Source of the DNA: Prostheceraeus crozeri
Taxonomy: Eukaryota > Platyhelminthes > Polycladida > Euryleptidae
DNA length: 64,000 bases
Direction: 5' to 3'
NCBI GenBank assembly: GCA_907163375.1
Contig: CAJQUW010010404.1
Coordinates: 62,001 to 126,000, forward strand
In this document: positions 19,446 to 57,958 of the stretch, in pieces
Layout of the letters: each line of letters begins with the position of its first letter
Numbering within the stretch: position 1 is the first letter of the stretch
The notes under the pieces: generated by a model
The model's database searches: none
What the model was told of the DNA's origin: nothing
The model's input: only the letters and a program-made list of their open reading frames with translations
Position numbers and translations under genes: made by a program

Positions 19446-20870
19446 CTATTGAGCGAAGATGGCGGTCTTGAGCGCTTTCACAAAATTCTCAGCCAATCCG
19501 TTAGACTGACGATGTCTCGGGGCGGTGAAGACTGACCGGCAGCCGATTGATTGCAGCCAAGCGTGTTGCGATTCAGCTGTGAATTGCGAGCCGTTATCGC
19601 TTACCAAAGCTTGTGGCACTCCCTCCCTCGCAAAACATCGTCTGAGAGCCCACTTAGTGAAGTCTGCATTAGCGGTAGCTGTTAGGAATACATCTGGGTA
19701 CTTGGAGAAGGAGTCTTCAATGATCCATGCGTAGTACTTTTGCAAAAACGGGCCGCAGAAGTCAACATGAACTCGCTGCATGGGCTTGTAAGTGACTGGC
19801 CACGGGTTCCAATGAGGATAAGTTCGTGGTTTCCGACAACACTCTTCGCATTGCTGCAGATAGTTGCTAATGTCGTTGTTGATCGTGGGCCACCAGCACA
19901 GCATTCTAGCTAGAGATTTCATCTTATCTCTCCCCAGGTGCCCGAGATACAAGTGCTTAAGCATGGCATCTCGACAAGTGGGTGGTATTAGGATGCAGTC
20001 GTTGTACGCAATAATGCCATCTATTTGAATGCGTAGGTCGGTTCTTTTGGCGTGGAGTTCTGGGAATCGTTTGCGTGCTGTTAGAGACCATCCGTTTCTA
20101 AGACCAGCGAGAACAGGTCCATAGGCCAATTTGGTTTCGTGGATAAGACGGTTGCGGTCAATCGGAAGCGGATTAACAATGTAGGAATCCACTTGCTGAG
20201 GAGAATCACTCTCTGCGTACCTCGACAGAAAATCGGCGTGGGGAATTTGCTTTCCAGGCTTATGCATGATGACGTAATCGTGATGTTGTGAAGTTGAGCG
20301 GGAAGTTCCATGATTTGACGTTGACGTAATGTGAACCTCTGAAACTTGACTAGAGATAGCGGTGTTCACATCGTCCCAGGTCTCTAAGAGTGCTTTAGCC
20401 TTTCTATAGGTTAGAGACGGTTCCCTGAGTAAGCGTTTCTGTATCTCCGGTTCATTGACTCCGGCTACTATTCGGTCACGTAGCTGGGTTTCGAGTCCTG
20501 ACCCAAAATTGCACTTCGCCGACTGCTTTCGAATGCGCAGTAAAAACTGTCGCAAGTTCTCATCTCCCCGGCGGACGATGTTGTGAAAGCGGGCACGCTC
20601 CGATGTCTCGAAATGTACTGGTCGCAGATGCTTCATGAGTAAACCCTCCAGGGCGGGTTCCGTCATCGAGCCGATGTTGTCCGGATGAGCGAGATCCTTG
20701 AGTAGATCGTAGGCCTCATCGCCTATCATGGTGAGGTAGAAGGCAATCTCGTTGGACTTGTCGATTATGGGATTCGTTCTGACGTAGAATGCAAACCGCT
20801 CGTGCCAGTTTGGGAACCCGGCCGGTTTGTTGATGTCGATCTTCTCCAAACAGCGTTCCATACTTACCAC
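19446..20870 (-). CDS. Gag-integrase fusion of gypsy-like element (474 aa)
   Basis: Residues 1-190 are a Ty3/gypsy Gag-like capsid domain (AGFPNWHERFAFYVRT, ENLRQFLLRIRKQSAKC). Near residue 200 it joins the very end of RNase H (HKPGKQIPHADFLSRY). Residues 290-470 are the integrase, with the HHCC zinc finger (HLYLGHLG, CEEC) and a D,D35E core (HVDFCGPF, LVSDNGSQF, SNGLAENFVKAL). The frame stays open although roughly 2 kb encoding protease, RT and RNase H is absent. Any mobility would need enzymes in trans. Confidence 0.85.
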   Translation of the reverse strand: MVSMERCLEKIDINKPAGFPNWHERFAFYVRTNPIIDKSNEIAFYLTMIGDEAYDLLKDLAHPDNIGSMTEPALEGLLMKHLRPVHFETSERARFHNIVRRGDENLRQFLLRIRKQSAKCNFGSGLETQLRDRIVAGVNEPEIQKRLLREPSLTYRKAKALLETWDDVNTAISSQVSEVHITSTSNHGTSRSTSQHHDYVIMHKPGKQIPHADFLSRYAESDSPQQVDSYIVNPLPIDRNRLIHETKLAYGPVLAGLRNGWSLTARKRFPELHAKRTDLRIQIDGIIAYNDCILIPPTCRDAMLKHLYLGHLGRDKMKSLARMLCWWPTINNDISNYLQQCEECCRKPRTYPHWNPWPVTYKPMQRVHVDFCGPFLQKYYAWIIEDSFSKYPDVFLTATANADFTKWALRRCFAREGVPQALVSDNGSQFTAESQHAWLQSIGCRSVFTAPRHRQSNGLAENFVKALKTAIFAQ

Positions 20871-21220
20871 CTAATCCGAACTTAATCCCTACGAGAAATA
20901 GGAGGACAAGTGAAAGCAGTAGAAGACAACAAAAGAAATAGATGAAACCTATTTATGTGAAGGACTGGGTTTTTCGAAGAACTGACGGCTCTCAGGCGAG
21001 CTGTGCGTCAGTATGAAGTCGAAGAGGATGAGTGGAAATTACTTCTGAACCACTGAAGTTTCAATACGCTCTAACCGAACGTATTGGGCCACCACACGAC
21101 TGTCTACCTGCTTAACCACCAGGGTTAAACAAAAAAACACTCTACCCGAGCGTTTTAGTCCAACTGTGCACTTGCAGTGAGTGCAGTAATAGTAAGCAAA
21201 GGCTGCTGCGCGACGCCAAT

Positions 21221-21540
21221 TGCTTTAGCCCACAACTGAGTATTGAAAACAAGTTTTAATACTCTCACACGTCCGTGCTGTTTATTTGTCAAACGACAGC
21301 TTATATAGCTCTGGATGAGCCAAGTTAACAAAAATCAGCATTGATGCATTTTAACTAACAGAACAATAGCAATGTCCACAACGCGCACTTTGAATTTCAC
21401 TTTCGATTCTGCATATCCACGCTTTGAGGTGAGTGTGCTTTGATCGCGGCAAAGGCGCATCGGGCTCGGAGATTCCACACGCTCGCTAGACAGCAGATGT
21501 AGTAGAACGCGATAGGAGATTTGAGCAGATAGCTGTCACA
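21221..21540 (-). repeat. 5' LTR
   Basis: 320 bp, apparently identical to 18473-18792. The PBS-like TGGCGTCGCG follows it on the minus strand. Confidence 0.9.
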
Positions 21541-21554
21541 GATTCCTCCCCGTT

Positions 21555-21600
21555 TAGATAGTTGTATCTATTTTATCTGCTTCAAACCCAAAATTTGTAA
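21555..21600 (+). pseudogene. 3' end of the DEDDh-type exonuclease
   Basis: Just after the LTR element the frame YLFYLLQTQNL then stop aligns with the end of the element B exonuclease (YLYYCQQHGC). AATAAA at about 21623 follows as poly(A) signal. Confidence 0.5.
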
Positions 21601-38540: not shown

Positions 38541-38708
38541 CCAACAGGAAGAATTATACCGAAATCCTCCTTAACATGCAACGTTTAAGTTGACTGATAG
38601 CAGATACAACTTTGTGATTTTATTTTTTATTTGTATGATAGATTCAGTCAGACCGAAGTCTGTCCAGAGCAAACCACGTGGAGGTACTATCATATTTTGC
38701 CCCATGGT

Positions 38709-38724
38709 GGTCTTTAAAAAGACT
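38709..38724 (-). terminator. Histone-type 3' stem-loop
   Basis: Minus strand AGTCTT-TTTA-AAGACC followed by ACC, 30 nt after the stop of the gene at 38754-39018. Five of six stem pairs form, with a 4-nt loop as in histone mRNAs. No AATAAA is seen in this interval. Confidence 0.6.
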
Positions 38725-38753
38725 ATTGGTTCGTTCTCGGGAAATGAATAGAC

Positions 38754-39018
38754 TTAGGTTTGGTCGATTCCGCTGAGAGAGACTTTTAATCTCTCTTTAT
38801 CAGCGGCATCGACCTCCTCTACTTCCATCCGACTGTCAAAGGGCGGAATATATCCCCACTCTGTTGAATCGTCATCATCGGTAACCGATGAGCCGATTCG
38901 AGCAAGATTGTTATAGACTCGCTGTCGCTCCTCCATCTCTAGAAACTCAATAAATAAATTTCTCGGTCTAAGCCGAGGCTTGTCAGGAGAGCTGACTGTC
39001 GTCTTAGGTGTTTTCATG
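38754..39018 (-). CDS. Small acidic protein of unknown function, element A copy
   Basis: The likely start is the ATG at 39016-39018 (MKTPKTTVSSPDK); an upstream Met in frame lies before the TATA region. About 87 aa with LARIGSSVTDDDDSTEWG and VEEVDAADKERL. Homologous to the broken copy at 2954-3226. TATATAAA is at about 39054-39061 on the minus strand. The transcript probably ends at the stem-loop 30 nt downstream. It lies directly downstream of the coiled-coil gene. Function unknown. Confidence 0.65.
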
Positions 39019-39170
39019 ATGGAGTATAGAATGAAAATGAAAGAGCGGCAATGGTTTATATACCCCTCTGATACAAGGACATGACTCAATTTTTCTAATT
39101 ATGTGATAGATTCAGACCGAAGTCTGTCCAGAGCAAACCACGAGGAGGTACTATCACTCTTGCTCCGTGT

Positions 39171-39186
39171 GGCTCTTAAAAGAGAC
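39171..39186 (-). terminator. Histone-type 3' stem-loop
   Basis: Minus strand GTCTCT-TTTA-AGAGCC followed by ACA, 30 nt after the spliced stop of the coiled-coil gene. GCAAGAG lies a few nt downstream, weakly like the purine-rich histone downstream element. Confidence 0.6.
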
Positions 39187-39215
39187 GTTTGGGGCGTTCT
39201 CGGGATCAAAAGATC

Positions 39216-40290
39216 CTACGACTGATGTAAAAACTCTGGAAGGAAGAGAATGGGAGATTGGATGCGGTAAGGAAATGATCATGTTGAAGTAACTTACTGG
39301 GAACTTTCTTCCGGACTTTTCGGACGACGAAGTCCTCAAGCTCGCCGATGATGTCCATGTTCATGTGGAGACATGGGACTCCGTCGTCCTCGTAGCATTG
39401 CTGCGTCCGATTGGGGTCAGTACTGATCGTTGGGGCGTCGCACACATTATTTTCGAAGAGGGGAAGATAGACTTCATACACTCTTCTTTTTCTACACTTC
39501 TCACGCTCATGCAATCGCCCTATTTCAGTCACCAACCTCTTGTTCACGCCCTTCACTTCCTCTGTTTCCTTCACCACGCTTCGCATCCGATCTATCTCAT
39601 CATCCTTCCTCAACAAATTCGCCTGCAGACTACTCACCAAACTTGCTTTCTTTATCAGCTCACTCCTTTCCACCATCCACTCTTTCTACTTCTGCCTCAT
39701 ACCTTCCAACTCTTCTCTCGTCACCTTATACCCTTCGGCCTTCGCAGTCAACTTCTCATTCCGCATCACTAATACTTTATTCTTCTCCTCAGCCGCCCTC
39801 AATCGATCTTTCATCCTCACATATTCATCCTTCGTGTTCCCTTCCTCCCTCCTAGGCGATGATGCCGCCAACGGCTTACCCACTTCCTTTCCTTCATCCT
39901 TCCCCTTCTCCTCAAGATCACCAATGTTCCCAAACAATTCCTCCAACACGTCATCCAAATCAACATCAATATCAGGCTTCTTGATATCCCCTCTCAACTC
40001 CACTTCTTCCTCACTCAAACCCTCATCAGTCGCCTTGGTTACACCTTTCTTCCCCACCGCACCCTCAATCGTTGCCACTGCCACTCTTTACCTCTTCCAT
40101 ATCTAACAAAGCTCCCTCAAACCACGACTTAAACCCCTGCATAGTAATATTGCCACTAGGGCACTGGCTATGGTTCCTAATGAACTCTACATCACTCCCA
40201 TCCTAACATACTACCCTATGATGCACACACACCCTCAACATTATTTTCCTCACATGCTCTCCCACCGTCCCCTCTTAGATGTGCTTTTTT
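39216..40290 (-). pseudogene. Coiled-coil nuclear-type protein, element A copy (spliced, broken)
   Basis: The conserved N-terminal region (HVRK...VCVHHRVVC, SQCPSGNI) is at about 40240-40120 with a stop. An acidic linker follows (DLDDVLEELFGNIGDLEEKG), then AASSPRRE and a long heptad-rich helix (RMKDRLRAAEEKNKVLVMRN, ELIKKASLVSSLQANLLRKD). The C-terminal domain has YEVYLPLFENNVCDAPT, CYEDDGVPCLHM and LEDFVVRKVRKK. Intron 39236-39297 (62 nt, GT-AG) leads to a 20-nt last exon ending at TAG 39216. There is a stop near 39685. The element B homologue is at 56447-57480. It resembles no family I know; a scaffold or regulator is possible. Confidence 0.6.
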
Positions 40291-40650: not shown

Positions 40651-41109
40651 GTCCCAAGTCGCAGAGACTCATAAACGACTGCTTTTTATTCAAAAATTTT
40701 ATTCATCATCATTAAATACGAATCTAAATTTTTCAGTATTTTAGTACTACTTATAAAACGTTTATCAGTAGTCTGTCAACTACAAAAAATCATGAGCTGT
40801 CAAATGTTTTTTGAATCAAGTCTAAAGGACTTGTAGAAGCAAAGTTATAGCCGTTTGAAGATTTCGGCCTACTATCATCAAATGGTCAGTCATACTATGG
40901 TGACTAACCTATTAGTCTGACTTCTTGGCTGATATCAGCAATGAAAAGTCAGAAGTCCGATATCGGACCTCAAGAGAAACGACTTACCTGTAGTCAGTTT
41001 CTCAACTTAGAGAGATTCCTCTCCCGAACTCGTACTTATATATACTTATATATCCTGTGAACATGCAATCGATAAGGGGGGCTAGACATTGGTTATCCAA
41101 AATTTGTGA

Positions 41110-42065
41110 ATCCAAATCTGGTCTTAGTTTTCTCGTCCAATGCTTCGTTCGCCCACTGGAGCCCAAAACACAAGACTCAACCTCTGACGGCTCTCTAACA
41201 TGGTCAAAAGTCTCAATGTCGCTCTCAAGCCTCAGCAAAGGAAGATAGGGTCAAACTGTGCTTTCCAATCAATTTGTGGCACTCTTAGCTTTCAAACGAG
41301 CTATTGCACGACTCTCTACCATTTCTAGAACCAAAGTTGGAAGATCGCTGCCGAAGGGGGGGTTGAAGTTCTTCGTTCTTTGGCCTACGACTTTGAAAAC
41401 AAGTCCCCTAGATCCAAAATTGGCCAAAAAGTCCAAATCAGCCGTCCATTTTCACGTACGAGGCTTCATTTAGCCGCTACAGCCAGTTTCTCACTCAAAG
41501 ACCCTCTGACGGCGCTCTAACATGGCCAAAAGTCTCAATGTCACTCTCAAGCCTCAGCAAAGGAAGATAGGGCCAAACTGTGCCTTCCAATAAATTTGTG
41601 GCACTCTTAGCTTTCAAACGAGCTATTGCACGACTCTCTACGATCTCTAGAACCAAAGTTGGAAGAACGCTGCCGAGGGGGGATCGAAGTTCTTCATTTT
41701 TAGCCCTATGACGATGAAAACAACTCTCCTAAGCCCAAAATTGGTCACAAAGTCCAAATCGGACGTCCATTTTTACGTACGAGGCTTCGTTTAGCCGCTA
41801 CAGCCAGTTTCTCACTCAAAAACACGCAAAAACACAGCTAGACCACACCTACACCCAAGAAACACAACATGTCGACGCAGAATTTCATCAGGAAACCAAA
41901 TCTAAACACAAAATAACCCTACACACCAAAAGCAAAGACCGGCGCCCAAGAACAACCACGACGATCGACCAAGACACACCCGGCCGGTCAACCCAGAGCC
42001 ACACCAACCCAAGTCGCGCTCCAGAGAGGGGGTGCTGTGCGCAGTTGGGAGGATTCCTTACTACT
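41110..42065 (-). repeat. Element A right ITR with internal tandem duplication
   Basis: Reverse complement of the left ITR. A module of about 330 bp (core at about 41285 and again at about 41620) is present twice. It ends CCTTACTACT at 42065, followed by the TSD GACGTG. Confidence 0.9.
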
Positions 42066-42700
42066 GACGTGAGGAAAAGTGATAGGAGTAAATATCCACC
42101 AGCAACTCTGAAAGAGCTTGGCGCCATGATTTAGTACAATTTCAATCATGCTCCCTATGACTCGGACTTTTACCTATTCAAAGATCATGAGTTTGCTAGC
42201 TCTCGATCAGTTTTGGATACAGAAATGAAATTAGCGGCTGAAGGAAGTTTGTAAAACCTAACAAAAGAGCTGAAAGCATTGGCATCGAAGCAGAAGAATT
42301 ATGGAAAAAGGGTGTACTTGGAAAGTCTAAATTCTCCCAAAAATAGTTCTCGTAGGGTATTCACAGCATTCAGAAAGCGACGAAAAATTTGTTTTGTGTC
42401 TCATCTTTGATTGAGAACTATGTAACGAATACTAGCTTGAGACACGCGGCTAAAAGCAAGCTTGCATCAGCTGGAATCCCTGATGAAATTGCAAGAAAAA
42501 AGACAGGTCGAATATGTGACTCTGCTGATTCTGCATAGAAAACTACGTAAACTATTCGAGAAGCGAATGAGTAATGCAATTTACTGCAAATATGATTCGT
42601 CGGGGGGAAAAGGTTAGGATTAGGCATGAAACTCAGAGTGATGCAAGATTATGCTTTCAAAATTGCTCTGTAAATATCACGATAAAGGAGTTGAAACATC
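42066..42700 (+). pseudogene. Crypton-like tyrosine recombinase, C-terminal part
   Basis: Resumes the gene cut at 16184: YPPATLKELGA, FKDHEFASSRSVLDTEMKLA, LWKKGVLGKSKF, then TNTSLRHAASK and ASAGIPDEIARKKTGRICDS after frame changes. The SLR-x-AA...GIP-x-x-I-x-KTG pattern resembles the C-terminal catalytic region of tyrosine recombinases of Crypton/DUF3504 type (R of box II, TGH-like TGR). Many stops; inactive. Confidence 0.55.
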
Positions 42701-45200: not shown

Positions 45201-45850
45201 AGTAGCAAGCCCGTGACAAATTGAAGGCCAAAATGTGCAGCGATGACTCATTCCCCTCCTCCCCTCCTGTCAGACTTCCAACTTGGGTGGGAGTGATTGT
45301 AGAAAGTCGTGCGATAGCTCGTTTGAAAGCTGGGAGTGAGACCAATGCAGTGGAAAGCATCATTTGTGTAAGTCTTCCTTGGTTTAGGTGTGAGAGTGGA
45401 AAGTGACTTGAAAATGTCAGGAATCTCCGAAAACGACAGAGCTGGGAAAGGGCAGGTTTTGGACGTTTTATGATGAGAAAGGCCATATTTCGGGGTGAAG
45501 GAGTGTTCGGATGGACAAACGGAGGCTACGTGCAATTTTACATCGGTAAGGTGATTTCCGGCTCAATCGGAAGAAAAAGTGCTGACCCCCCCCTCTTGTC
45601 AGACTTCCAACTTGGGTGGGAGTGATCGTAGAAAGTCGTGCGATAGCTCATGTGAAAGCTAAGAGTGAGACCAATGCAGTGAAAAGCATCATTTGTGTAA
45701 GTTTTCCTTGGTTTAGAGTGGAAAGTGACTTGAAAATGTCAGGGATCTCCGAAAAACGACAGAGTTAGAATTTTATGAAAATGTCTCTAACTTTTGAACG
45801 CGGCATCGTATGAGAGAACTGAGAACAGATTTGAAATCAGCGTGACATTT
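45201..45850 (+). repeat. Element B left ITR
   Basis: Contains two tandem modules (core at about 45305 and 45635: GTCGTGCGATAGCTCGTTTG or GTCGTGCGATAGCTCATGTG). The first about 400-500 bp match the right ITR at 59280-59773 with indels. Confidence 0.85.
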
Positions 45851-46050
45851 TACACCTGAATTGATGGGTTTTGAGGGTCGTGGGAGTGACATAAACACGC
45901 AAACATTTACATCTTCGATAGCAAACAATCTTTTCTCATGAAAATACGAGACAAACGTTCAACATTAGATAGTGTTTCATTCCAAACGACTGAAAAATCT
46001 TGTTAGAACTGTGTCATTCCATGCTATGTCTCAGATGTGATAGGAAGAAA

Positions 46051-46473
46051 GATGACAGATGCAGTAGAATTTACGAATGAATTTTGTTCATTACGTTTTC
46101 ATCGACAAAATCTTCGAGATGTGATTATGGACTACATCATCTCATTTCATCATGAAAAGGCAGACTTAGAAGTTGCCATCGCCAAAGGTTACTTCGTTTT
46201 CCAACAGCTCATGGACAGTTTGATAAATAAAGATGTGAAAGGTGATTAGTTGCAGAGATCGAATTTGAGAAAGTGACTGATGAACATGCGGGCAAACGTG
46301 TAGTGTTTCATTTTGCATCCTATTCTGCAGAGACGATACATGATCCTAAAGATTTCTATCAGCGACACATGGCGAAAATTTCATCTCGACCAGATTCATT
46401 TCATGAGCATGGATCCAACTTGCTCTTATGTCGCATAAAACACATTCATTTTCAGCTCAATGTGCTAAACTAG
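46051..46473 (+). pseudogene. famX protein, element B copy 1 (frameshifted)
   Basis: MTDAVEFTNEFCSLRFHRQN opens the frame, with LRDVIMDYIISFHHEKADLE next. A frame change near 46247 separates it from VFHFASYSAETIHDPKDFYQ, RHMAKI and IKHIHFQLNVLN. It is collinear with the intact protein at 21681-22097. Confidence 0.65.
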
Positions 46474-46488
46474 ATTTGACTACAAGAT

Positions 46489-46856
46489 TTGGGAAAAGCA
46501 ATCATGAGTCATTTTCTCTTCATCTCATCCTCTTGGCTTGAAAGCGTGTGTGACTTGCTCAAGCCATTCTCCGTCTCAATTTTGTCTGATTTCATCCTGT
46601 TTCCAAATTTCCAAGTGAGTGTCATGACTATGTGGCCTAAACCGTGCCAACATTTTAGAAGAGAAGCGCGGGAGAGTGTGTGGCCGATGATTGTACAAGC
46701 CTATTTTGTTGAACCATCGCCACCACCGCCTCCACCACCTAGACGCTTTACCTTCAAGTCCTTTAAGGAATTGAAACTTAATTCGGGTCCTAAGGCCAAG
46801 ACATTTAATTTATTGGACGATGACGAAGAGTTAGACTTTGGTGATAAGCCTCAAAT
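46489..46856 (+). pseudogene. Pro-rich acidic-tailed protein, split by MITE
   Basis: The frame contains PSPPPPPPPRRFTFKSFKEL and the acidic NLLDDDEELDFGDKPQI. A 1,010-bp MITE interrupts it two codons before the original stop (TGA 47879-47881 beyond the MITE). A histone-type stem-loop follows 12 nt after that stop. No family is recognised. The true start may be downstream of 46489 or spliced. Confidence 0.5.
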
Positions 46857-47866
46857 TAGAGTTCGGTTCGAATATTTGAATATATTCAAGTACCTCTCGT
46901 GGACGAATATTCGAATACGAAAATGAAAATTCGAATATTAACGAATATTCGAATATCAAATGCCATTCGAATACTATACAAAATGACTGAAGTCATAATC
47001 TGATTTTTAGAATAATTAGCCTTGTACGGAAAATACAGTATATCGATACCACGGATATAATATTGAACTTTTATCATTTAGTGTCATCCATTAGACACAT
47101 TTCAGGTGTTGAATTGTAATAAGGACTACATAGAAAAGTTTCTCCTATTCAATTATCCTACCGAGATACCGAAGTGGCGTCATTCGACTTGTGTAATATT
47201 GTGTAATCCAACTGCCAGATTCCTGCTTTATATTAAAATTTAGATCTCCTATTACAATTCTTCAGATGCTATAGTTATGAGACTGGCTGTTGGCATGAGG
47301 TGGATATGTCCTCTAATTAACAGATGAGTGGACAGAAAAACATCCAGCTCTATGGGAACGCGGTAACTGAGTGCTTCACTGCTTTTGGCTATTGAGTTGT
47401 GACAGCATCGAATAGCATCAAACGCGGTAATTCAGTGAAAGCTTCACTCATAGATATGGCTTCACTGCTATTGGCTATTATGAGTTGTGACAGCATGTTA
47501 AGTGGACTTGAGAAAATCCCATTATTCGCAACACAAGTCACTACCTTCTTGACTTCATTCAACGTCATTCAATTAATTTTGCTCATGTTTCTCATATTCA
47601 GACACATAGCTTCGAAGCTTTTTGAAATAAACTAAGCTACAGGTAGGCCTAATTATGAGTTGCAATCCACGTGCATGTATGAAATGATGAAAATAAGTTA
47701 AAGTAAGCTTTTGAGAACAGTTTACATTGAGCCATCATCCTGATCAATAGTCAGGAGTGATGACACACAAATATAGGCTAAATGCAATTTTCCAAATAAT
47801 TCGAATATTCGTTCGTCGAAATGACGAATATTCGAATACCAAATTTCGCACGAATACCGAACACTA
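46857..47866. mobile_element. hAT-like MITE with TTCGAATATTCG ends
   Basis: Tips TAGAGTTCGG and, inverted, TAGTGTTCGG. 8-bp flanks CCTCAAAT (46849-46856) and CTTTAAAT (47867-47874) match in six positions. Both ends carry ATTCGAATATTCG arrays. 8-bp duplications and A/TAG.GTTCGG tips fit hAT elements. No transposase was recognised inside. A truncated copy is at 56187-56345. Confidence 0.7.
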
Positions 47867-47892
47867 CTTTAAATCATGTGAACGCAGCAAAA

Positions 47893-47908
47893 GGTCCTCT
47901 TAAGGGCC
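47893..47908 (+). terminator. Histone-type 3' stem-loop
   Basis: GGTCCT-CTTA-AGGGCC followed by ACC: six pairs including one G-U, 4-nt loop, 12 nt after the stop of the Pro-rich gene. The best match of the series to the histone geometry. Confidence 0.65.
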
Positions 47909-47995
47909 ACCTCTTATGTCACTGCTAAGCTATGGGTTTTCTGTTCTCTGATGATTGTGAATGTACTTAGTGGTATTCTTTCGTTACAGACTGCC

Positions 47996-48663
47996 ATGGC
48001 CATGAATCCTACTCCTACTGCTGCATCACTCAATCCTCATCATCTCGAGCTGTGGAATCCGAAAATTGAAAAGGTAATCCCACCTTCAAACAACAAGTGC
48101 TCTACAACGGTGTTCGACTTTATCTTCAAACGTCGGCGGTATACTTACCAAAAGTGGATACGCAAGTAAATCGCTGCGGTCAAAACCTGAGTATCCCTAT
48201 TGATAATTGGTTGCGTCAACAGCTTGACATTTTGGAAGACGTTGTGAGGCAAAACGCTCTTATTCCCACTGAACTGTTGCAGTTGTGGCCAGAAAAGAAA
48301 ACTTCTTATTATAAACCATTGTATCGCGGCACTCGCTGCTTCATTTTACAAAGCAAGTATTGTAAAGTCACTTCAGGAGTGACAGTTGAACAGTTAGTTG
48401 AAACAGAATTGTCAACGCTAGGTGCAGGCTTTTATTCCTTTCATATTGAGGTGCCTGCTGTTTATGTGGGACCTCATCAATCTGATGGTAATTTGATTTC
48501 TCTCAATTTACGCATTGCCCAAATTCATCATCAAACTGAGTTAACAGGTCTTGATCACATTGAGAAACTCATTGATTCTTGTATCAAAGAGTGTCATGGA
48601 CCTGTCACCAAACATAAACGTCGTCGCGCATCAAAGAAAGATGGTGTCACCACCAAAGAGTAA
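47996..48663 (+). pseudogene. famY protein, element B copy 1
   Basis: An acceptor-like TTCGTTACAG (ends 47989) precedes ATG 47996. A frame change near 48100 leads into the long frame with LSIPIDNWLRQQLDILEDVV, LGAGFYSFHIEVPAVYVGPH and LISLNLRIAQIH, and a basic tail KHKRRRASKK. It aligns over its length with 50352-50987 and 16995-17776. Unknown function; the basic tail may aid nuclear entry. Confidence 0.65.
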
Positions 48664-48829
48664 TCTTAAGTATTCTAATCAGCTAGTTTGTAGTGAATGT
48701 GGAAAACGCGGTCTTGTGCGTTATATTCAATTAAAACATTGTAATCATGTTGTATGCATCTTTTGTTATGTAAAGGACAGACACATGTGCCTTGTAAAGT
48801 TCCTGCTCAATGTATTATCTTGCAATTAA
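48641..48829 (+). CDS. Small zinc-finger protein, element B copy
   Basis: About 62 aa if started at the ATG at 48641, overlapping the famY end. VCSECGKRGLVRYIQLKHCN, HVVCIFC and HMC give the same Cys/His spacing as 17811-17936. It is followed at 48838-48847 by an acceptor-like TTGATATTGTAG and the exonuclease frame. Confidence 0.55.
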   Translation: MVSPPKSNLKYSNQLVCSECGKRGLVRYIQLKHCNHVVCIFCYVKDRHMCLVKFLLNVLSCN

Positions 48830-48847
48830 GTCTCTTTGATATTGTAG

Positions 48848-49415
48848 GCTATCATCTTCATAGACAGTGAGGGGACACCAATACAGGAGTTGACTGCTAT
48901 TGATTGCAATGAGGGAAAGTGATCAAACTGTTGCTAGTGTGTATCATAGATTTGCCTACTGTCCTCCACACAAAGACGAATGGTCACGACGTCATGTGCA
49001 TGGACTTGATCCTTCTCTTTTGATTCATATTGGATTTGTAAATGAAACGTATTTGATAAGTGATTTCAAACGATGGCTGTCAGGTTTTCATATTGTTAAA
49101 ATATTAGGAAATGATTCTGAACGAGAAACAGCAACACTTCAGTTGCACATTCATAATTTATATTTACCATGATGGGTAGATCGTGTAAGACAAGACTATC
49201 ATATGCATTGTGATCAAAAGAAGTTTAGAGATGAAATGATTTTTGATATGGCTGTATGTTTCGGTGAGAGACATCACCTTTACAGACCACCATCACATTG
49301 TAATACTAGAAATAAAACCACCTACATTGCAAAACTCTCTTCACGCTGGCATTTTAGTCTCTATGATGTTCATGAACTGTATCTATATTATTGTCAACAG
49401 CATGGATGTAGATAG
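48848..49415 (+). pseudogene. DEDDh-type exonuclease, element B copy
   Basis: Opens AIIFIDSEGTPIQELTAIDC (Asp-x-Glu motif I), shifts frame near 48912, then DEWSRRHVHGLDPSLL, KILGNDSERE (candidate motif II), LYLP-stop-WVDRVRQDYHMH, and WHFSLYDVHELYLYYCQQHG, whose His-x4-Asp fits motif III. About 190 aa. The order is the same as in element A. DEDDh enzymes degrade DNA or RNA 3' to 5'; a proofreading or end-trimming role for the element is possible. Broken by one frameshift and one stop. Confidence 0.6.
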
Positions 49416-49573
49416 AGCATGTTTTTGCTCCATGCGAATGAGTGATGATCTTTTCATGAATTGTATTTACCACCATCTGATTGCTTTGTGAATTTTGATT
49501 GATGTTGAATAAGCTCACAGTGGAACATGATTGTTATTTCTGTTTTATTCATGGTGGAAGTCATTGAAGTAAT

Positions 49574-50002
49574 ATGAAATCTATAGTCGCAACGTTTATG
49601 ATGACGCATCGTACCTTAAGTAACCACATGTGTCATTTAACTCTTGATCAACAAGGATTCGATGGACTTTTACAAGATTGGAAACTTACATTTAAAATGA
49701 AGATGAATGATATGAAAGTAGTGCTCACTGAACGCCTTCCTCTCTTCAAAAGATTGATAGAGAGTTTTCAACCTCAAGATGTGAAGGGTAGACTCGTTGC
49801 TTATATTGAGTTGAAAGATTCGCAAAAACCACTTCGTTTTGGATCCTATTGCTCAGAATGGATTACTCTTAGTGATCAATTTTATGCGCGACATATGGAG
49901 AAATTATGGAGAAAATGGTAGAGACGATGGAAGGAAATGCCTACGTTGTTAAACATATCATGATTCAACCTGAGTGTGTCTACATCCACGACTTTGTTTG
50001 AT
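49574..50002 (+). pseudogene. famX protein, element B copy 2
   Basis: TFMMTHRTLSNHMCHLTLDQ then FKRLIESFQPQDVKGRLVAY, RFGSYCSEWITLSDQFYARH. A frame change near 49917 leads into a last segment with VKHIMIQPECVYIHDFV that aligns with the end of the intact copy at 21681. Confidence 0.6.
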
Positions 50003-50351
50003 AGTCAACATGTGTAAATGAAACAAGAACTAGTTCAATGAATCATTCGTTTTATTAACTTTTGTCAATGTGGGTGGGCACTAGAGTAAATGAGGCATTC
50101 TGCTTGGTGTTGGAGATGAATAGGTGTCTTTGTACGGTAAAACGGGCGTGTTGTAACATGAGTCATTCTGGTTTGTTGCTTTTAGGTCTTTCTTCACTAA
50201 AGGGGGCGTGTCACTAAAGTCTTTGTGAGGACTAGAACTACGTTGTATATAAATAGGGAACGCTTCCACCCACGAGGTGAAAAGTTCACGTATGATGACT
50301 CTTTGTCATGTAACAAAGACAAGGAAAACGTGAAAAGGGAAACGCATGTAA

Positions 50352-50987
50352 TTGGAGCAAGGTCTGGTTATAAAACGGACGACTGAGCTCATAGCAATCA
50401 TTTCCGTCCTTGCGCTAACCATGCAGTTGCTCGAAGCCATCAACTCCTCTGCTCTCGCACTTGGTACACTGAAGTCCCTTACTTTAGCATCGGGTAAAAA
50501 TGCTTTCAATCAAAAGATAACTCATCACGGAAAAGACGTTGCCATAAAAACACCAAGTCATCGGATGGATTATCTAGAGGTTATCTCAACACAGTATGGA
50601 CTCGCTGTATGTGTACCGTTAGACTATTGGACACGGTTACAATTCAATAGTCTTGAAACATTCCTGAAAGAAAATCTCACCATTCCCAAAGAAATTGTTC
50701 GACACAATGGGAAGCGGCAACAAGTTCCCATCATGGAAAAAAGATACATGTATGTTCATATGGATAGACACTGCCTCATCATCCATGAAAAGGAGGGCAG
50801 CGAATTCGACTTACTCAATTGCAGACCTCTCCCCATTTTGGGAAAAGGATTCTACTCCTTCGAAATTAAAATTCAAACCATCTACATGGGTCCGCGCAGG
50901 GACGGAAGGTTGTTTACGTTGAATCCTTATCTTGTCTCCATGACCTTCAAAAATGATGTCCATGTTGATGATGATCAGCCACAGTAG
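50352..50987 (+). CDS. famY protein, element B copy 2 (211 aa)
   Basis: Longest intact member. A hydrophobic N-terminus (TELIAIISVLALTMQLLEAI) may be untranslated or an intron remnant, since a CATGCAG acceptor-like site ends at about 50425. The core is AVCVPLDYWTRLQFNSLETF, PILGKGFYSFEIKIQTIYMG and LFTLNPYLVSMTFKNDVHVD. A TATAAA-like TTATAAAAC is at 50369. No domain is recognised. Present in two copies in B and one in A. Confidence 0.65.
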   Translation: MEQGLVIKRTTELIAIISVLALTMQLLEAINSSALALGTLKSLTLASGKNAFNQKITHHGKDVAIKTPSHRMDYLEVISTQYGLAVCVPLDYWTRLQFNSLETFLKENLTIPKEIVRHNGKRQQVPIMEKRYMYVHMDRHCLIIHEKEGSEFDLLNCRPLPILGKGFYSFEIKIQTIYMGPRRDGRLFTLNPYLVSMTFKNDVHVDDDQPQ

Positions 50988-51144
50988 CACTCTCCACACA
51001 CTGAGAACGACCATCGGTCTTTATGAGACCAAAGCCTAACGGCCACCTTATCAAGAAAGAATATATACACTCACCATGCCACACATGAACACCACTCTCT
51101 CTCCTTCTTTCTTAGGCATTACACTCTTCACTTAGGTTTGAATC

Positions 51145-51387
51145 ATGATCATGTGGAAATTATCAGCCTGCCTCTATGTGTCATGGAAAAGTCAGTGTGT
51201 TACATTTCATGATACGAAACGTCAACTTCAGATAACTCTAGAAAGCTTTCAACTACGAAGGTTGCATCGCGCCATCATGTCCAACTCTTGTCGTGTGATT
51301 AGTTTAGGAGAAGGCATTGTATTTATTCGCATTCAAGAGATAATTCTACATAATGATCACTGCTACATCGTGATTCCAAAACCCTGA
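51145..51387 (+). CDS. PC4-like small protein, element B copy (80 aa)
   Basis: LYVSWKSQCVTFHDTKRQLQ, then ITLESFQLRRLHRAIMSNSC. It aligns with 28389-28757 through the strand-turn-strand plus ITL..FQL..L..IM helix. Shorter than the A copies. It lies about 50 bp before the TBP-like gene, the same pairing as in A though in the opposite orientation relative to the element. Confidence 0.45.
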   Translation: MIMWKLSACLYVSWKSQCVTFHDTKRQLQITLESFQLRRLHRAIMSNSCRVISLGEGIVFIRIQEIILHNDHCYIVIPKP

Positions 51388-51396
51388 TGGGAAAAG

Positions 51397-51405
51397 TATA
51401 AAAGG
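51397..51405 (+). promoter_or_regulatory. TATA box of the TBP-like gene (B)
   Basis: TATAAAAGG in GGGAAAAGTATAAAAGGGAA, the same context as in element A. Confidence 0.7.
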
Positions 51406-51438
51406 GAAGTTCACTCAACGCTCATGTCTTTTGTGAAT

Positions 51439-51979
51439 CATGCTTCCCATCCGTATCATCAACGCCATGCGCGAAATGAATCTCGGAAGAGACATCGATT
51501 AACAACAGTTGCATACCCATCTTCCCGATTTAGTGTATCATCGCAGTCGTCCACAAATGTTGGTCATTCGCATGAGCAACGGTCGAAATCTTCAAATCTT
51601 TCGCTGCGGAAAGATCCAAGTCCTAGGAAACCTTTATCATTTCGTGATGCAGTCCATGTGTTACGAAGTCGTAAAGAAAATGCAAACACTCATGCCTCAT
51701 CTACGTCTCAGTGCCCTGACATTGAAGAATATAGTATTGTCTGCTCAATTGAAGATGTTAGTGAATCTAGCAAACATTAAAACCAGTAATCATTGTATAT
51801 TTTATGAAACTGAACTCTTTCCCACTGCTCTGATTCGGAAGTGGCATCCCGTACATATTGCAGTGTTTCACAACGGACATTGTATCATGACTGGTTTACG
51901 TGATATCAGTAAAGTAGCTGACATTGTAAAATCTTTAATGCGTTATCTGTATGAGTCACAGTTAATAGAATCGTGTTAA
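51439..51979 (+). pseudogene. TBP-like protein, element B copy (one frameshift)
   Basis: ATG 51439 starts a short frame that shifts near 51500. The rest is open: RPQMLVIRMSNGRNLQIF, CGKIQVLGN (repeat 1), then FYETELFPTALIRKWHPVHI, AVFHNGHCIMTGLRD and a C-terminal helix VADIVKSLMRYL (repeat 2). YETELFP followed by a strand, G-x-x-x-x-TGL/A and a helix is the TBP second-repeat pattern. About 175 aa, matching the TBP core length. The phenylalanines that kink DNA in cellular TBP cannot be placed with certainty. Confidence 0.7.
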
Positions 51980-52960
51980 TCACATGATGTGTTTTGAATG
52001 AGTCATCGCAATGAGCTATCGCCCCCACACAGTTGTCGATGAAAAGGTCATCAACAAGGTTGATCGCTTTATGATGAGTCAGCGCTATTTATAGACATGA
52101 AATGATGCCCACACACTTGTCGGTGAATAGGTCACGCTGTCTGACGTGAGGCACCATCGATGTTGAATAACACGTCCACACACTTGTCGGTGAAAAGTTT
52201 GAACAAGACTGATTAGATTGTTATCTAACTGAATGGCGCTTTGCCACTTCATGAGTCAGAGCTATTTATATACATGAGTCAGCAAAGTGTATGATGCTTT
52301 CTAAGCCGAAGAAATTTTCATGATGCTACATTCGTTGGAAACTTTGTTAGAAACGTGAGGATGTTAACTTTCTTTCTAGCTTTACAAACAGCAACTTTAT
52401 CTCTATCTTTACAATTACTGAAATGATTCTAACATTATTTTATGCTTTACCTATCTTACAAACTCTGAAATGATTCTAGCTTCATTTTATACTTCACCTA
52501 TCTTACAAACTTTACAAACGTTAACTTTACTTCTAATTTCACAAACTGTGAACTGATTCTAACTATATTTTATACTTTACCTATCTTAAAAACAGTGACA
52601 TGCATATGACATTATTACCAAGTCAGTCCCACCTATTTGAACCGCAACTTTATGTGAAAAGAAAACGACACAGCATGTACATGATATGTTATTCATCATC
52701 ACAGCCGATTTTCATGGCACCGCACATAGGTAATACTGATGGTAGCAGAAAACAAAGTTTTTATGGCTCACATCACCGAAGAAAACAAAGTCATTGAAGG
52801 AAACTGTACAGGGACAAAACAAAGTCAGGAAAACAAGTTGATATGCAAGTCATGATATGAAGTTATCAGAATATGAACGCTTGTTACAAGGCACTCACTC
52901 ACAACAACCCATAGAAAACGCCATGGAGAGAAAAGTAAAACATCAACCACAACAGAGAGG
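51980..52960. repeat. Repeat-rich intergenic region where virion genes would be
   Basis: Three copies of CACACACTTGTCGGTGAA-like units (about 52027, 52112 and 52172) and a tandem array at 52370-52590 built on TTTTATACTTTACCTATCTT and AAATGATTCTAAC. No gene is recognised. Confidence 0.6.
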
Positions 52961-52972
52961 AAGCATTCATCA

Positions 52973-55900
52973 TCATACATCGCCGGACGGAGGAGGAGAA
53001 AGTTTCTGTCTCTTGGGTGGAGGTAGATGAGTGTCTGGATGTCCGTACGGTAATGAGTGGTTAGGACTCATCCAGCATCGCTTGTCTTCCCAAGCTGAGA
53101 GACCTCGTTTCCTAAACGTCGTTGTTCTGACTTGATGCGACTGTGATTTTAAAATGATCATTTCTACTTTTTAATTTTGAGTGAATCTAAGGCATCTCGA
53201 TAGTCCCCATGTGTCATACTCCCAACGATTGACTTCGAGATGCCTTTCGCCCGTTTAATAGAAAGCTCTGAGGATTTTAGCTTCATGGAGTACATCTTGG
53301 GGCGAAGCAAGATCATCTCCTCTATGTGTTTGCCGGCACACTCATCCTTGAAGCAGCCAAGCTTCGCTTTACTTGTGGTAGAGTAAAGCGGATGGTCAGT
53401 GGGATGATTAGAACTATCAAACTTGGGTGCTAAATTTGTTAAAATGTCTACCTGCTTGACTTGGCTAGTGGTTGTCAAAGCTAGGAAGAAGCTATCTGTA
53501 TCGCCTCCTACTAATTCCACATGTTGGAGCAGTGGGAAAGTCTTAGAGGTGTGGTAGAACAGCTTGTGCATTTCTAATTTGGAGTGATCCAAGACAGCTT
53601 GACCGACATAAATAGGTTTACAGAGTTCTACTTTGGATTTTAACATTTTATAGCCAGTGATGTCTTCGGAAATGACATCATGGTGACAAAACAACGGTGA
53701 ACGGCATAGCTTGATACTCGTTTCCGGATCAGTCACGATACGATAGTCCATGCGCTTTCTTACATCCTCCATGGTTTTACCAAAGAGGGCATTATTCTTA
53801 AATTTGAAGAAGTCCTTTTCGAAAGTATTCTTGGATTCAGCCCGTTTCTTACTATTAAATTCTATATACGGTTTTAGAAAGGGCTTCTGCCTAAACTGGA
53901 TAGCGCGATGGATTTTGTTAAGTTGCATCCCCATACCTAGATAGAATTTGAGAATGGAATAGTGTACGATATAATGCTTCTTGTTCAATTGGGTGAGCAA
54001 CAACTTCCTAGTGGGTTTATAGTTTAAGTCATTTTCCGCCTCATATTTCTGATTGTGTTCTTCAATAAAGGGGAGAACATATCTGGACTTACTATGCCAG
54101 ATTCAAGTACGAGAGAAAAATCAACTGTCTTATTCTTAATGCATTCTGGATAGATGAGGTCGACTTCAAATAAATAACCTATGTCGGCCTCATCTCCCAG
54201 TGCCATGATGTGTGCTGGATTGGAGAAGTGTTCAATGTCATGGGGTTCTACCCATTGGAAGTCGGACTGTGGCAAAGGCTTGGATAATGCACTCCCATAT
54301 AAATTATTTTGGTCTATGTACATAAAATGCGTGGTCAATCCTATGTCTTGGGTGCTCTTTACAACATGTTTGTTAGCAAACGTTAAGCCACCCCTAATAC
54401 CACGTTCAAATAACGTGTACATTTCTGCATCTTGCAGTACATGTATGCTCTCTTTCGTCATCTTGAAGGCTGACTGATAGGACAGACCCGGCAGACTAAC
54501 AAAATGGACGGGGTTTAAGGCGTCCTGCTCTAATGTGACTTTCCTAAAAGTCTCAAACACGTCAGCCAACAGATAGAAGTCTAATTTTAAGTAGGCAAGC
54601 ATGTAGTCACCAAAAATGCGACACCTAAATTCCAACCATGCTTGCTCTGCATGCCTATAGTCATCCGGCGGACAGTCCTCACCCGTCAAATCATTTTTAA
54701 ATTTATCGATGGACGGAAGTAATGTCTCCTTTAATGTCTCTATTAAACTAAAATAACTATAAGGAAACACCCCTTTCCGTCGCATGAGACTTTCACTTAT
54801 GTTGGGATAGTCTTTCTTTAAATGTTGCGTGAGGGGAAGTGTTTCTAAATTATTAGCCAACGCGGCTAAGGAAGAAGACATAAATTGAAAACTGTCTATA
54901 AACTTTTTGTCATAGAAGACAGGCTTCCCCTCCTTCGTCTTATCGACTTGGACTTTAGTAGTGATGCACATAAATTTTTCCTTACTTTGTGCAATCACTT
55001 TGGATGACCAGGACTTCATTTTACCGAATCCATGGCGAATGATGATGCGAACATCATAACATTTAAAGTTATGGAGGATGACGGGGAGCGTTTGCCTTTT
55101 GAACCTAAGTTTCATATTACATTTACTCATAAGGCAGACCTAAATTTACCACTGAGATGGCAATGGTCCCTCACTTTCTTATGTTGCTGATCATCAAAGG
55201 ATGAACAGGAGCGGGGACATTCTGTGGTCTCATCAAATTTGAGTTCATCGGCTTCTGTGAAGCACATGGGTTTTCTAGTCAGCTCTGTTTAATGCCGTTG
55301 ATGAAAACGGGCTTTCCTATCTAAAAAGTTGAGGAAGTTTTCAACGCACTCCTCGCTTTGCCATGCATGCATTTTATTTTGGTTCCTATAATATGGATGC
55401 CAAACTTCATAACAGGCAACGGCTGCTGGCTCATGACTTAGGTCTTCTTGTTCAATGTAACATTCAATGTCCGCATAGATGGTACATATGGGACATATGG
55501 GACTGAGCTCATTGCCGTTTTCCTCATACCTATAAAATTTATCTTTGGGCATGACTTCCATTTGAAGTTTACCCCGTGAGCACCACTCGTAATGCTGTTC
55601 GAAAAATGGTTTTGACCTAAAGCGCCGTGTGCAGCGATCACAGCAATAATACTTGTCGTCACTACTTTGTTGGTAGCGATACAACTTTGAAATTTTAGGA
55701 ATGCCACAATAATGCCATTCTGGGTGGCTGTTTCTATAAACTAGGAGGAGGTTGACAACCCGGTCGAAGTTACTTTGGCGGTTGTTATACCTAACGCCCT
55801 TCAGACCTTTTTCCCAGAGATGGACGACTATCTCAATTTCATTTACTTTTTCAAATTGGGTGATGTCCCTAAAATCTAATGTGTTGACATCTAACCCGTC

Positions 55901-56186
55901 AAACTTAAGCTCATCCTCCCATTCACGATAGTGAGTGACTCTTTGACGATGCATTCTTATATCATCATAGTGTAGAATGGAGAGGACGGCATACTTGATA
56001 CACTGGAACTGACAATCAACATTGACGACAGCCTTTTTGCTCGCCAATGCTTTGGGGAGGGTGAAACAACCGCTCCCTTGCAAATTTTCTAAAAGATTGA
56101 TTTTAATGTCTACTTTCTCTATCCCATCAAAAACGAAACCGCTATCTCTTTCATTAAATTTATTTAAGTTGCTGACGAGATAGGAT
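52973..56186 (-). pseudogene. Protein-primed family B DNA polymerase, element B copy
   Basis: Better preserved than in A. N-terminal SGFVFDG and VDCQFQCIKYAVLSILHYDD; exo I IYADIECYIEQ; YLKLDFYLLADVFETF; FERGIRGGLTFANK; palm motif A YIDQNNLYGSALSKPLPQSD; motif B KNNALFGKTMEDVRKRM; motif C LVGGDTDSFFLAL; IKRAKGISKSIV. Frame changes at about 55140-55290, 54010-54025 and 53162 split it; the last separates the C-terminal WEDKRCW tail. The N-terminus is cut at about 56186 by a MITE fragment. Catalytic Asp residues of motifs A and C are visible. Confidence 0.92.
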
Positions 56187-56345
56187 AATTATTCTAAAAA
56201 TCAGATTATGACTTCAGTCATTTTGTATAGTATTCGAATGGCATTATACTCGAATATTCGTTAATATTCGAATATTCATTTTCGTATTCGAATATTCGTC
56301 CCTGAGAGGTACTCGAATATATTCGAATATTCGAACCGAACTCTT
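56187..56345 (-). mobile_element. Truncated copy of the hAT-like MITE
   Basis: Reverse complement of 46857-47020 (ATTCGAATATTCG tracts, TAATCTGATTTTTAGAATAA). It separates PolB from the coiled-coil gene end. Confidence 0.75.
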
Positions 56346-56383
56346 CTTGGGACCGCTTTAGCTGCATTAGAAGGTCTACCGGT

Positions 56384-56399
56384 CTACCTTAAGAGGGCT
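56384..56399 (-). terminator. Degenerate histone-type stem-loop
   Basis: Minus strand AGCCCT-CTTA-AGGTAG then ACC. Only the inner three pairs remain. It lies 47 nt after the spliced stop of the coiled-coil gene and is followed by TTCTAATGCAGCTAAAGCGG, as after the intact stem-loop in element C. Confidence 0.45.
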
Positions 56400-56446
56400 C
56401 ATGGAGCGTTCTCCGTCCACCGACACTACTACTGTCACTTTTACGA

Positions 56447-57480
56447 CTACTGCAAGAACTCTGAACAGAAAAGACAGTGAATGAGAGTCGATTTAGAGTA
56501 GATGACTTTAGAGGGACTTACTCGGCTTTTTCTTTATAACTTTCCGTACGACAAAGTCTTCCAAATCGCCATTCATTTTTATTGACAAATGTGGGCATCT
56601 AACACCTTCGCCTTCATAACAGCTTTGTGTTGTATTTAGATCGTCCGTGAGGGTCGGTACATCGCAAATATTGTTTTCAAAGAGGGGAAAGTGAACATCA
56701 TACACTCTCTTCCTCTTCACTCTTCTCTCAACCTCTCGGAACTTTTCCACTTCACTCCCCAACTGTCTGTTAATCACCTTCGTCTCTTCCACTTCCTTCA
56801 CCACACCTCGCATCCGCTCTACTTCAAACTTCTCACATCTCAACTCCGACTATAAGCGCTCAGCTGCTTTCACTCGCTTCATCATTCCACTCCTTTCCTT
56901 CAACCACTCCTGCTCCTTCACTCGCATCTCCTCCAACTCCTCTCTCATCACCTTCATTCCATCAACCTTAGCCTTCAGCTCTTCATTCTCCTTCAAAACT
57001 TTTCCATTCACACTCTCCATACCCATCATGCGATCCTTCAACCTCACAAACGCCTCTGTATCATGCGCCTCTTTCCTAGGCGATGATGCAGCTACAGGCT
57101 CACCCATCTCACCATCCAACTCTTCAGACCACTCACTCCCAAACAATGAGACCATCAACTTCTTAGTCTCATCACTCGCTCGCTCAATCACTCCTTCTAT
57201 CTCTACTTCCTCTTCACTCACCACTGCCTCCTGTTCCTTCGATACAGCACCCTCAATATTTTTAACTGCTGCATCCAACTCCTCCTTCGTCCTAATTATT
57301 TCACTCATCCACATGCGAAACGGTAACGCACCAATGTTTCCGGATGGGCAAGATTCATGCGCCTTCCGGAAACCCTCAACATCATCCTCATCACACACCA
57401 CCTTATGATGAACACAAACAATAAAAACATGCACTCTCTCATGTTGGTCCAGCGTCCCTTCTTTGATGTGTTTTCAATAT
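56447..57480 (-). pseudogene. Coiled-coil protein, element B copy (about 325 aa, one stop)
   Basis: N-terminal HERVHVFIVCVHHKVVC and HESCPSGNIGALPF form a Cys/His-bearing domain, then an acidic linker (VVSEEEVEIEGVIERASDE), AASSPRKE, a long heptad helix (RLKDRMMGMESVNGKVLKEN), a TAG near 56850, and VEETKVINRQLGSEVEKFRE. The C-terminal domain has VYDVHFPLFENNICDVPT, CYEGEGVRCPHLS and LEDFVVRKVIKK. Intron 56461-56521 (61 nt, GTAAGT...TTCAG) leads to a 14-nt last exon ending at TAG 56447. The same gene in A has the intron at the same place. The start is not certain; Met 57303 (SEIIRTKEE region) or an upstream exon is possible. Confidence 0.65.
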
Positions 57481-57790
57481 TCGCTGCCCCTAGTCGATCT
57501 GCCACAGGAGCATTGCGTGATGATGAATCGTGGAGTTTTAGTCATTGTAAAGATTCTGTAAAGATGGGGTAAAATTTGATAGCAAGTGTTTATAGGATAC
57601 TACTTGCTGATATGCATTGAAAGACTAAGTCACCAAACATTTGATAGCAAGCGTTGGAATAAAATCGTCAACAAAATTTAGAGGGTATGATTCCTAGCTT
57701 TATCCTAAAACCCAAAGTTTGATAGCAAACCTTGTCAGAGCACTCACCGTTCGTTAGAAAACTGGAGTGAAGACTAGAGAGATGCAACGG

Positions 57791-57881: not shown

Positions 57882-57958
57882 GCATCGGCAATCACCGTGC
57901 TTTCAGTAACCAACTCCCAACACAGACTGCTACATGTACGTCTGTTGCCCAAGGCTGT

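Follow-up and report, generated by a model that had tools for sequence, protein, structure and literature searches.

This study concerned the 3' ends of genes in Polinton-like elements of the polyclad flatworm Prostheceraeus crozeri, beginning with one stretch of 64,000 nucleotides (the window). Two unrelated genes of these elements are each followed by an RNA cassette in two parts, a stem-loop of histone type (or similar) and, after it, an HDV-like or a twister ribozyme unit. Both classes occur at the same place, and the cassette recurred in gene ends sampled from the host genome. We consider it probable, judging from sequence, that ribozyme cleavage makes stem-loop-ended mRNAs without poly(A) for some Polinton genes, bypassing both U7/CPSF73 and the poly(A) machinery. 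An earlier, sequence-only reading had recognised the stem-loops, missed the self-cleaving-ribozyme-like units directly 3' of them, and proposed processing like that of histone genes, which is probably wrong, as a ribozyme unit sits where the U7 snRNP would act.

The same reading had called the elements Polinton-like, and this is supported by terminal inverted repeats, a B-type polymerase (through homologues), an integrase, a C48 protease and a weakly matched packaging ATPase. The elements and the two genes lie in the window as follows.

16172-42078: Polinton 1, terminal inverted repeats 16172-16836 and 41107-42078 (self-BLAST, repeats 89-90%)
45254-59645: Polinton 2
480-1507 and 3451-4210: repeats of a short Polinton derivative that holds a p87-like gene
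39206-39676, minus strand: coiled-coil ('coil') gene, last long ORF, at the right end of Polinton 1
38754-39017, minus strand: 87-aa acidic gene ('p87'), one ORF
39053-39064, minus strand: TATA box of p87 (from the sequence), 38 nt after the coil-gene ribozyme
2908-3240, plus strand: p87-like gene with a broken frame, in the short Polinton derivative

The polymerase was assigned through homologues with PF03175, the window's own polymerase ORFs giving no Pfam family. Copies fetched from elsewhere in the genome held an integrase (rve, 9.3e-12), a C48 protease (4.7e-5) and a weakly matching packaging ATPase, while their large ORFs, perhaps capsid proteins, had no Pfam match above the cut-off; the ATPase of Polinton 1 likewise gave a weak AAA_14 match. 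Despite the weak ATPase and the unmatched capsid ORFs, the elements were taken as Polinton/Maverick. Polinton 1 contains a nested LTR element (18467-21558) with an rve integrase ORF (19446-20870) and, by eye, a piggyBac-like ORF at about 25.3 kb. An intron of the coil gene was predicted by eye near its 3' end, before the hairpin (donor around 39286-39301, acceptor around 39222-39245), and the p87-like stretch 2908-3210 shares 82.7% DNA identity with 38761-39063 of the p87 region.

Five 16-nt hairpins had been reported from the window, and all were confirmed at their places, as were their loop letters, CTTA or TTTA.

3310-3325, plus strand: stem-loop, CTTA loop then ACC, behind the broken p87-like gene
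38709-38724, minus strand: stem-loop behind p87, TTTA loop then ACC (Histone3 11.4 bits, local scan only)
39171-39186, minus strand: histone-type stem-loop behind the coil gene, 5/6 pairs (Histone3 20.3 bits at 39146)
47893-47908, plus strand: histone-type stem-loop, 6/6 pairs, GAACG upstream (Histone3 22.1 bits at 47888)
56384-56399, minus strand: decayed stem-loop 3' of the Polinton 2 coil gene (from the sequence)

Some of the detail required correction. The ACC said usually to follow the hairpins is ACA at 39171, and the 6-bp stem is complete at 47893 only, with five of six pairs formed at 3310, 38709 and 39171. A spacing of 12-47 nt between stop codon and hairpin holds at 39171 (19 nt) and 38709 (29 nt), counted by coordinates from the nearest ORF stop, and fails in the 14 of 30 twister copies from the host genome whose ORF was open to there, where it is 82-83 nt. 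The Rfam model Histone3 (RF00032), which had been put forward as the check, gave an answer that depended on the copies scanned: 22.1, 20.3 and 19.0 bits in the window, with the 3310 hairpin not listed at E <= 10, and 32.2 bits (E 2.9e-6) in 16 of 20 host-genome copies picked by RNA, 18 of which scored at least 30 bits. The gathering cut-off of 34 bits was reached nowhere in the window or the copies, and Rfam at gathering threshold had 0 matches in the whole window.

Six hairpins in the window fitted a loose pattern, against a mean of 1.87 and a maximum of 8 in 200 dinucleotide shuffles, and by itself this count is weak evidence. With GAACG within 18 nt upstream, a criterion chosen post hoc once the motif had been noticed, five of the six were retained and none occurred in the 200 shuffles; one of the five, at 45949 on the minus strand, is probably due to chance. 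Further sites combining GAACG and a hairpin were seen in or near Polinton 2, at 49119-49150 (plus strand) and 45960-45930 (minus strand), with no ribozyme recognised 3' of them, and none was found 3' of the 47893 hairpin by local scan or by eye (hammerhead by eye). Another histone-type 16-nt hairpin, at 12844-12859 on the minus strand (5/6 pairs; Histone3 19.0 bits at 12800, E 1.9), lies without GAACG soon after the stop of what by eye is a Tc1/mariner-like transposase ORF, and is probably a chance occurrence.

The hairpins behind the coil gene and p87 of Polinton 1 are each followed by an HDV-like unit.

39103-39166, minus strand: HDV-like ribozyme behind the coil gene, with cleavage predicted at 39167/39166, 4 nt past the stem
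38635-38703, minus strand: HDV-like ribozyme behind p87, with cleavage predicted at 38704/38703, 5 nt past the stem

They were identified by the plan of the class: a 7-bp P1 starting with G, P2, a 3-bp P3 whose loop, TCC[TA]CGT, has the L3 pyrimidines, P1.1 GG, a UUCG-capped P4 and the J4/2 C..A motif. P2 differs between the two units by a compensatory change, and the P4-J4/2 part of the 39103-39166 unit is a few nucleotides shorter than in most copies elsewhere. Part of this plan is given in PMC10879173, where J4/2 begins with the catalytic C.

A strict descriptor of the plan matched twice in the window, both times at these hairpins, and had no match in 300 dinucleotide shuffles, in distant Polinton loci (93,961 bases), or in host loci fetched around twisters (156,210 bases); a looser, first descriptor had matched six additional places in the window. 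The Rfam models were less decisive. In scans confined to the local stretch, RF02682 placed its position 1 on the predicted cleavage base at both sites (12.1 bits at 39166, 18.4 bits at 38703), and RF01787 (drz-agam-1), with whose consensus the P3/L3 letters agree, gave 12.9 bits at the 38703 unit, but HDV models scored only 12.1-19.8 bits in the window and the copies, and their gathering cut-offs of 37-44 were not reached. At the 39103 unit mir-1827 outscored the HDV model in a local scan, and in 15 of 20 genome copies SNORA12 (17.8-21.2 bits, cut-off 45) was placed over the HDV-like stretch, where an HDV model appeared in one of the 20 at E <= 5. With scores so far under the cut-offs, and with other families scoring alike, Rfam alone cannot carry the HDV claim; the unit is identified by the descriptor. 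Folding energies, computed by single-strand folding without pseudoknots, were no better than those of shuffles (z -1.27 to +0.40).

Twister units stand behind two other hairpins of the window, one unit well kept and the other a relic.

3328-3394, plus strand: twister ribozyme of type P1, with cleavage predicted 3' of position 3332 (U-A step), 7 nt past the stem
56346-56373, minus strand: truncated twister relic behind the decayed hairpin, broken by a AATATTCG-rich repeat

The first scored 39.3 bits (E 4.5e-5) with RF03160, and five host loci scanned with the same model yielded seven matches in four of them (41.3-48.4 bits, E 6.9e-8 to 8e-6); the gathering score of 67.2 was reached neither in the window nor in these loci. 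The blocks AA.GC.GC, CGGUxCCAAG and GAGGG and the U-A step are all present, and it is at a U-A step that twisters cut, according to PMC5408937. Divergent twisters occur in two of the host loci, L120 (minus strand 7715-7782 and plus strand 5561-5627) and L119 (minus strand 3854-3921). These stand behind coil and other Polinton ORFs, so hairpin and ribozyme are present on more gene ends than the window's two; the hairpins behind the other ORFs are AGTTCTTTTAAGAACT and AGCCT-TTACG-AGGCT. The AATATTCG-rich repeat looks like a short mobile repeat. It is 165 bp long, with copies at 46858-47022 and 56182-56344 that are 94.5% identical, the one upstream of the 47893 hairpin and the other adjoining the broken twister at 56346.

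Copies of both cassettes were collected from the 2.05-Gb host assembly by their RNA, a choice that biases the samples towards intact units; all sampled copies were close relatives from the top of long lists. The twister cassette had 683 candidates, and the 40 that were scored were 93-100% identical. All 30 fetched copies had p87 upstream (tblastn pieces 50-81% identical). On contigs C393, C1539, C3390, C3601 and C11589 the scored twister places formed inverted pairs 8.6-14.5 kb apart, and in the pairs that were inspected each end has p87 with its hairpin and twister, both sets facing inwards and flanking Polinton genes (the integrase rve, the C48 protease and the weakly matched ATPase); on C4475 the two twisters run in the same direction. 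The HDV cassette had 1343 candidates, of which 40 were scored (38 of them matching over a few nucleotides more than the 39103-39166 copy) and 20 fetched. The coil gene was upstream in all 20, and in 18 the hairpin was GGCTCTTTTAAGAGCC, identical to the stem-loop in the consensus of Rfam Histone3.

In the 20 genome copies and the two units of the window, P2 (7/7), P3 (3/3), P1.1 GG and the J4/2 C..A were kept in 22 of 22, counts that are partly built in, as the motif of the script required some of these features. P1 was fully paired (7/7) in 20 of the 22, and the distance from stem to predicted cut was 4 nt in 21, the remaining one having 5 nt.

Gene ends were also picked by protein, which removes the bias of picking by RNA. 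A first search with the coil ORF gave 66 candidates, none at E <= 0.001. A coil protein search of the host genome gave 7296 candidates, 150 of which were scored, and 40 ends were fetched, 20 from near the top and 20 from near the bottom of the scored list, with places fetched before excluded. Every one of the 40 had the HDV-like unit, aligning with scores of 84-109 out of 118. The p87 search gave 6509 candidates, again with 150 scored, and the HDV-like unit with its hairpin was present in 19 of 20 fetched ends, the exception (L193) being interrupted by other DNA. Over both sets the alignment scores were 55-109 of 118, compared with a maximum of 22 in 180 letter-shuffles. The first-look candidates, 7296 for coil and 6509 for p87 with 150 of each scored, point to a very high copy number of Polintons in this one animal genome.

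A hairpin of at least five pairs stood directly 5' of the unit in 38 of the 40 coil ends by script (that of L170 being spurious on inspection) and in 19/19 p87 ends, as against 14% and 12%, respectively, with shuffled flanks. Fully paired hairpins numbered 29 of 40 (coil) and 17 of 19 (p87), compared with 2% and 1%. The claim that histone-type stem-loops lie at Polinton gene ends was thus sustained for the coil class. There, the 6-bp stem, 4-nt loop, A-rich 5' flank and ACC of the histone stem-loop were found, and 23 of the 40 hairpins were exactly the canonical GGCTCTTTTAAGAGCC, mostly with AAAC on the 5' side and ACA after, in addition to the 18 of 20 among RNA-picked copies. The full set of these features was lacking in 17 of the 19 p87 ends, whose hairpins had a non-canonical 15-nt form (13 being GGTCTTTAAGAGACC); the other two were canonical. 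In the window, three of the four well-kept hairpins had five of six pairs.

Both ribozyme classes occur behind both genes. An HDV-like unit follows p87 in 19 of 20 protein-picked ends and in the window, while a twister follows it in 30 of 30 fetched twister copies and at 3310. The coil gene, with its HDV-like unit in 40 of 40 protein-picked ends, has a twister in L120 (48.4 bits, E 6.9e-8) and a relic of one at 56346-56399. Two unrelated classes therefore share one place behind the same genes. This is the strongest argument that selection acts on a cut directly 3' of the hairpin. The hairpin families differ by paired, compensatory changes (GGCTCT/AGAGCC, AGCCCT/AGGGCT, AGTTCT/AGAACT, GGTCT/AGACC). 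HDV-like ribozymes are known from non-LTR retrotransposons, and the units could in principle derive from unrelated retroelements inserted nearby, or be chance folds. Such an origin is extremely improbable given the constant distance of 4-7 nt, the presence of two classes behind the same genes, and the inverted pairs of p87 cassettes at both element ends.

The same samples bear on the model of the earlier reading, that of true histone-type processing by U7 snRNP and SLBP, in which the conserved downstream unit would be incidental. The canonical stem-loop of many copies is what that model expects, but an HDV-like unit lies downstream in 40/40 and 19/20 protein-picked ends, and a twister behind p87 in all 30 fetched twister copies, which makes it very unlikely. 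A uniform role of SLBP is also disfavoured, as 17 of 19 sampled p87 hairpins have the 15-nt form.

The surroundings of the units raise another possibility, that the ribozymes are insulators which cut read-through RNA between close-packed genes, with the mature mRNAs still using poly(A) sites. The p87 TATA box lies just 38 nt past the coil-gene ribozyme. AATAAA is found a few nucleotides past the 38635 unit of the window and within 40 nt downstream of 3 of 19 p87 units, and the weaker AATATA in all 19. Against this, none of AATAAA, ATTAAA and AATATA occurs within 40 nt behind 39 coil units, and a cut upstream of a poly(A) site removes that site from the mRNA, so that insulation is an unlikely function for these units. 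As AATATA or AATAAA lies behind p87 units and neither behind the 39 coil units, a poly(A) back-up is conceivable for p87.

A comparison with phage-type twisters touched on the role of the hairpin. A twister pattern retrieved 43 IMG/VR loci (L001-L043) on contigs that look like phage DNA, with 45 sites where a cut could be placed, and at 31 of these a hairpin of at least six pairs ended 0-8 nt before the cut, compared with 7.9% when the flanks were shuffled. Phages, too, may commonly have hairpin ends trimmed by ribozymes. A narrower test for loosely histone-like hairpins flagged four IMG/VR sites, one of them (L041) directly before a twister. Other searches were less productive: the GAACG-hairpin pattern gave four IMG/VR loci, three identical in sequence, which are not the Polinton cassette, the HDV L3 pattern gave 18 loci, the combined hairpin and twister pattern none, and a single-protein polymerase scan of IMG/VR none that was confirmed. 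In the distant Polinton loci L066-L079 there was one hairpin, with no HDV-like or twister match. The strict HDV descriptor had five matches in 602,250 bases of loci that had largely been picked by ribozyme motifs; four (L048, L052, L056, L060) lie at the HDV L3 pattern by which the loci were fetched and one (L055, phage-type) elsewhere, and they are possibly theta-type ribozymes.

That a hairpin before a twister is wider than Polintons counts for a reading in which cleavage is real but the hairpin acts as a general barrier to exonucleases at the 3' end, resembles the histone stem-loop by convergence and is no SLBP site. The phage sites raised our estimate of this reading slightly, to not far short of an even chance, and slightly lowered that of the case, set out below, in which Polintons copy the host's stem-loop and obtain SLBP-bound mRNAs. 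The 15-nt hairpins of 17 of 19 sampled p87 ends, and the AGCCT-N5-AGGCT hairpins before the divergent twisters of L119 and L120, point the same way. The letter-for-letter GGCTCTTTTAAGAGCC of 23 of 40 coil hairpins, mostly with AAAC 5' and ACA 3', and the Histone3 E-value of 2.9e-6 in RNA-picked copies are harder to reconcile with convergence. A generic roadblock is compatible with the first half of our explanation, the making of the end by a ribozyme.

In that explanation, RNA polymerase II would read through the cassette, and the ribozyme would fold and cleave the RNA 4-7 nt 3' of the stem. On the upstream side this would leave a non-polyadenylated mRNA ending in the stem-loop and a short ACC-like tail, and the remainder would be discarded. 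The ribozyme would thereby stand in for U7 snRNP/CPSF73 and for the poly(A) machinery, while the stem-loop would protect the mRNA end and, where canonical, may bind SLBP. Reporters with ribozyme-made ends do yield mRNA in animal cells, without poly(A), in the experiments of PMC2680333. PMC12775136 describes histone mRNAs that in S phase keep their stem-loop with a 3-nt extension, and a rise of SLBP of about 20-fold in that phase; the canonical hairpins would therefore suit SLBP, and its binding to them is plausible. It is possible, if somewhat short of an even chance, that Polintons copy the host's histone stem-loop and make the end by an RNA catalyst of their own, the HDV-like and twister units having replaced each other, and so obtain, from the genes at the ends of the element, SLBP-bound, poly(A)-less mRNAs that would be stable during S phase and would need neither U7 nor histone locus bodies nor the poly(A) machinery.

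The resemblance to replication-dependent histone 3' ends (RF00032, SLBP, U7 snRNP, CPSF73) extends to the 16-nt stem-loop with its 6-bp stem and 4-nt loop, the CCAAA-like 5' flank and the ACC-like 3' tail. Histone mRNA is cut 4-5 nt after the stem, much like the predicted cut here. The differences are that cleavage would be by a ribozyme, and not by U7-guided protein, and that the mRNAs come from Polinton genes, for one of which an intron is predicted. A 2',3'-cyclic phosphate is expected from the HDV-like and twister classes, unlike at histone ends. Retrotransposon HDV-like ribozymes (drz-agam-1, RF01787; R2) share the nested double-pseudoknot plan and free the 5' end of the retroelement RNA, whereas here the upstream product would be an mRNA. 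The type-P1 twister (RF03160) agrees in its conserved loops and in the U-A step at which it cuts (PMC5408937), and phage-type members likewise often stand behind a hairpin (31/45), but those described here lie behind animal gene ends, are exchanged with an HDV-like unit and have a short P2-P3 part. The nearest known principle is that of the theta ribozymes of gut phages, which, according to PMC10879173, are also HDV-like, with the cleavage base abutting a folded RNA whose 3' end is thus defined; there the folded RNA is a phage tRNA, here an mRNA stem-loop in a DNA element of an animal. The engineered GFP-hammerhead and GFP-histone-SL reporters (PMC2680333) are man-made, and the passages on them do not combine the two kinds of end.

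Among the literature matches listed, subscription journals being mostly outside the search, none described natural self-cleaving ribozymes joined to histone-type mRNA ends or to Polintons, and the one paper that mentioned both an adintovirus and a ribozyme concerned ribozymes of another virus group. In our view the arrangement amounts to a novel type of 3' end for an mRNA, built of components of known kinds, though anyone who gives the components more weight might see a variant in it. To our knowledge, the natural self-cleaving ribozymes of animals mostly lack an assigned job, and in these elements it can be told from where they stand. If the proposed mechanism is true, a ribozyme-made mRNA 3' end would join the poly(A) and U7 routes as a third natural way of ending an mRNA in animals, a DNA element would have a histone-type end at its disposal without recourse to the machinery that cuts histone mRNAs, and there would be an explanation of how these mRNAs might evade control through poly(A).
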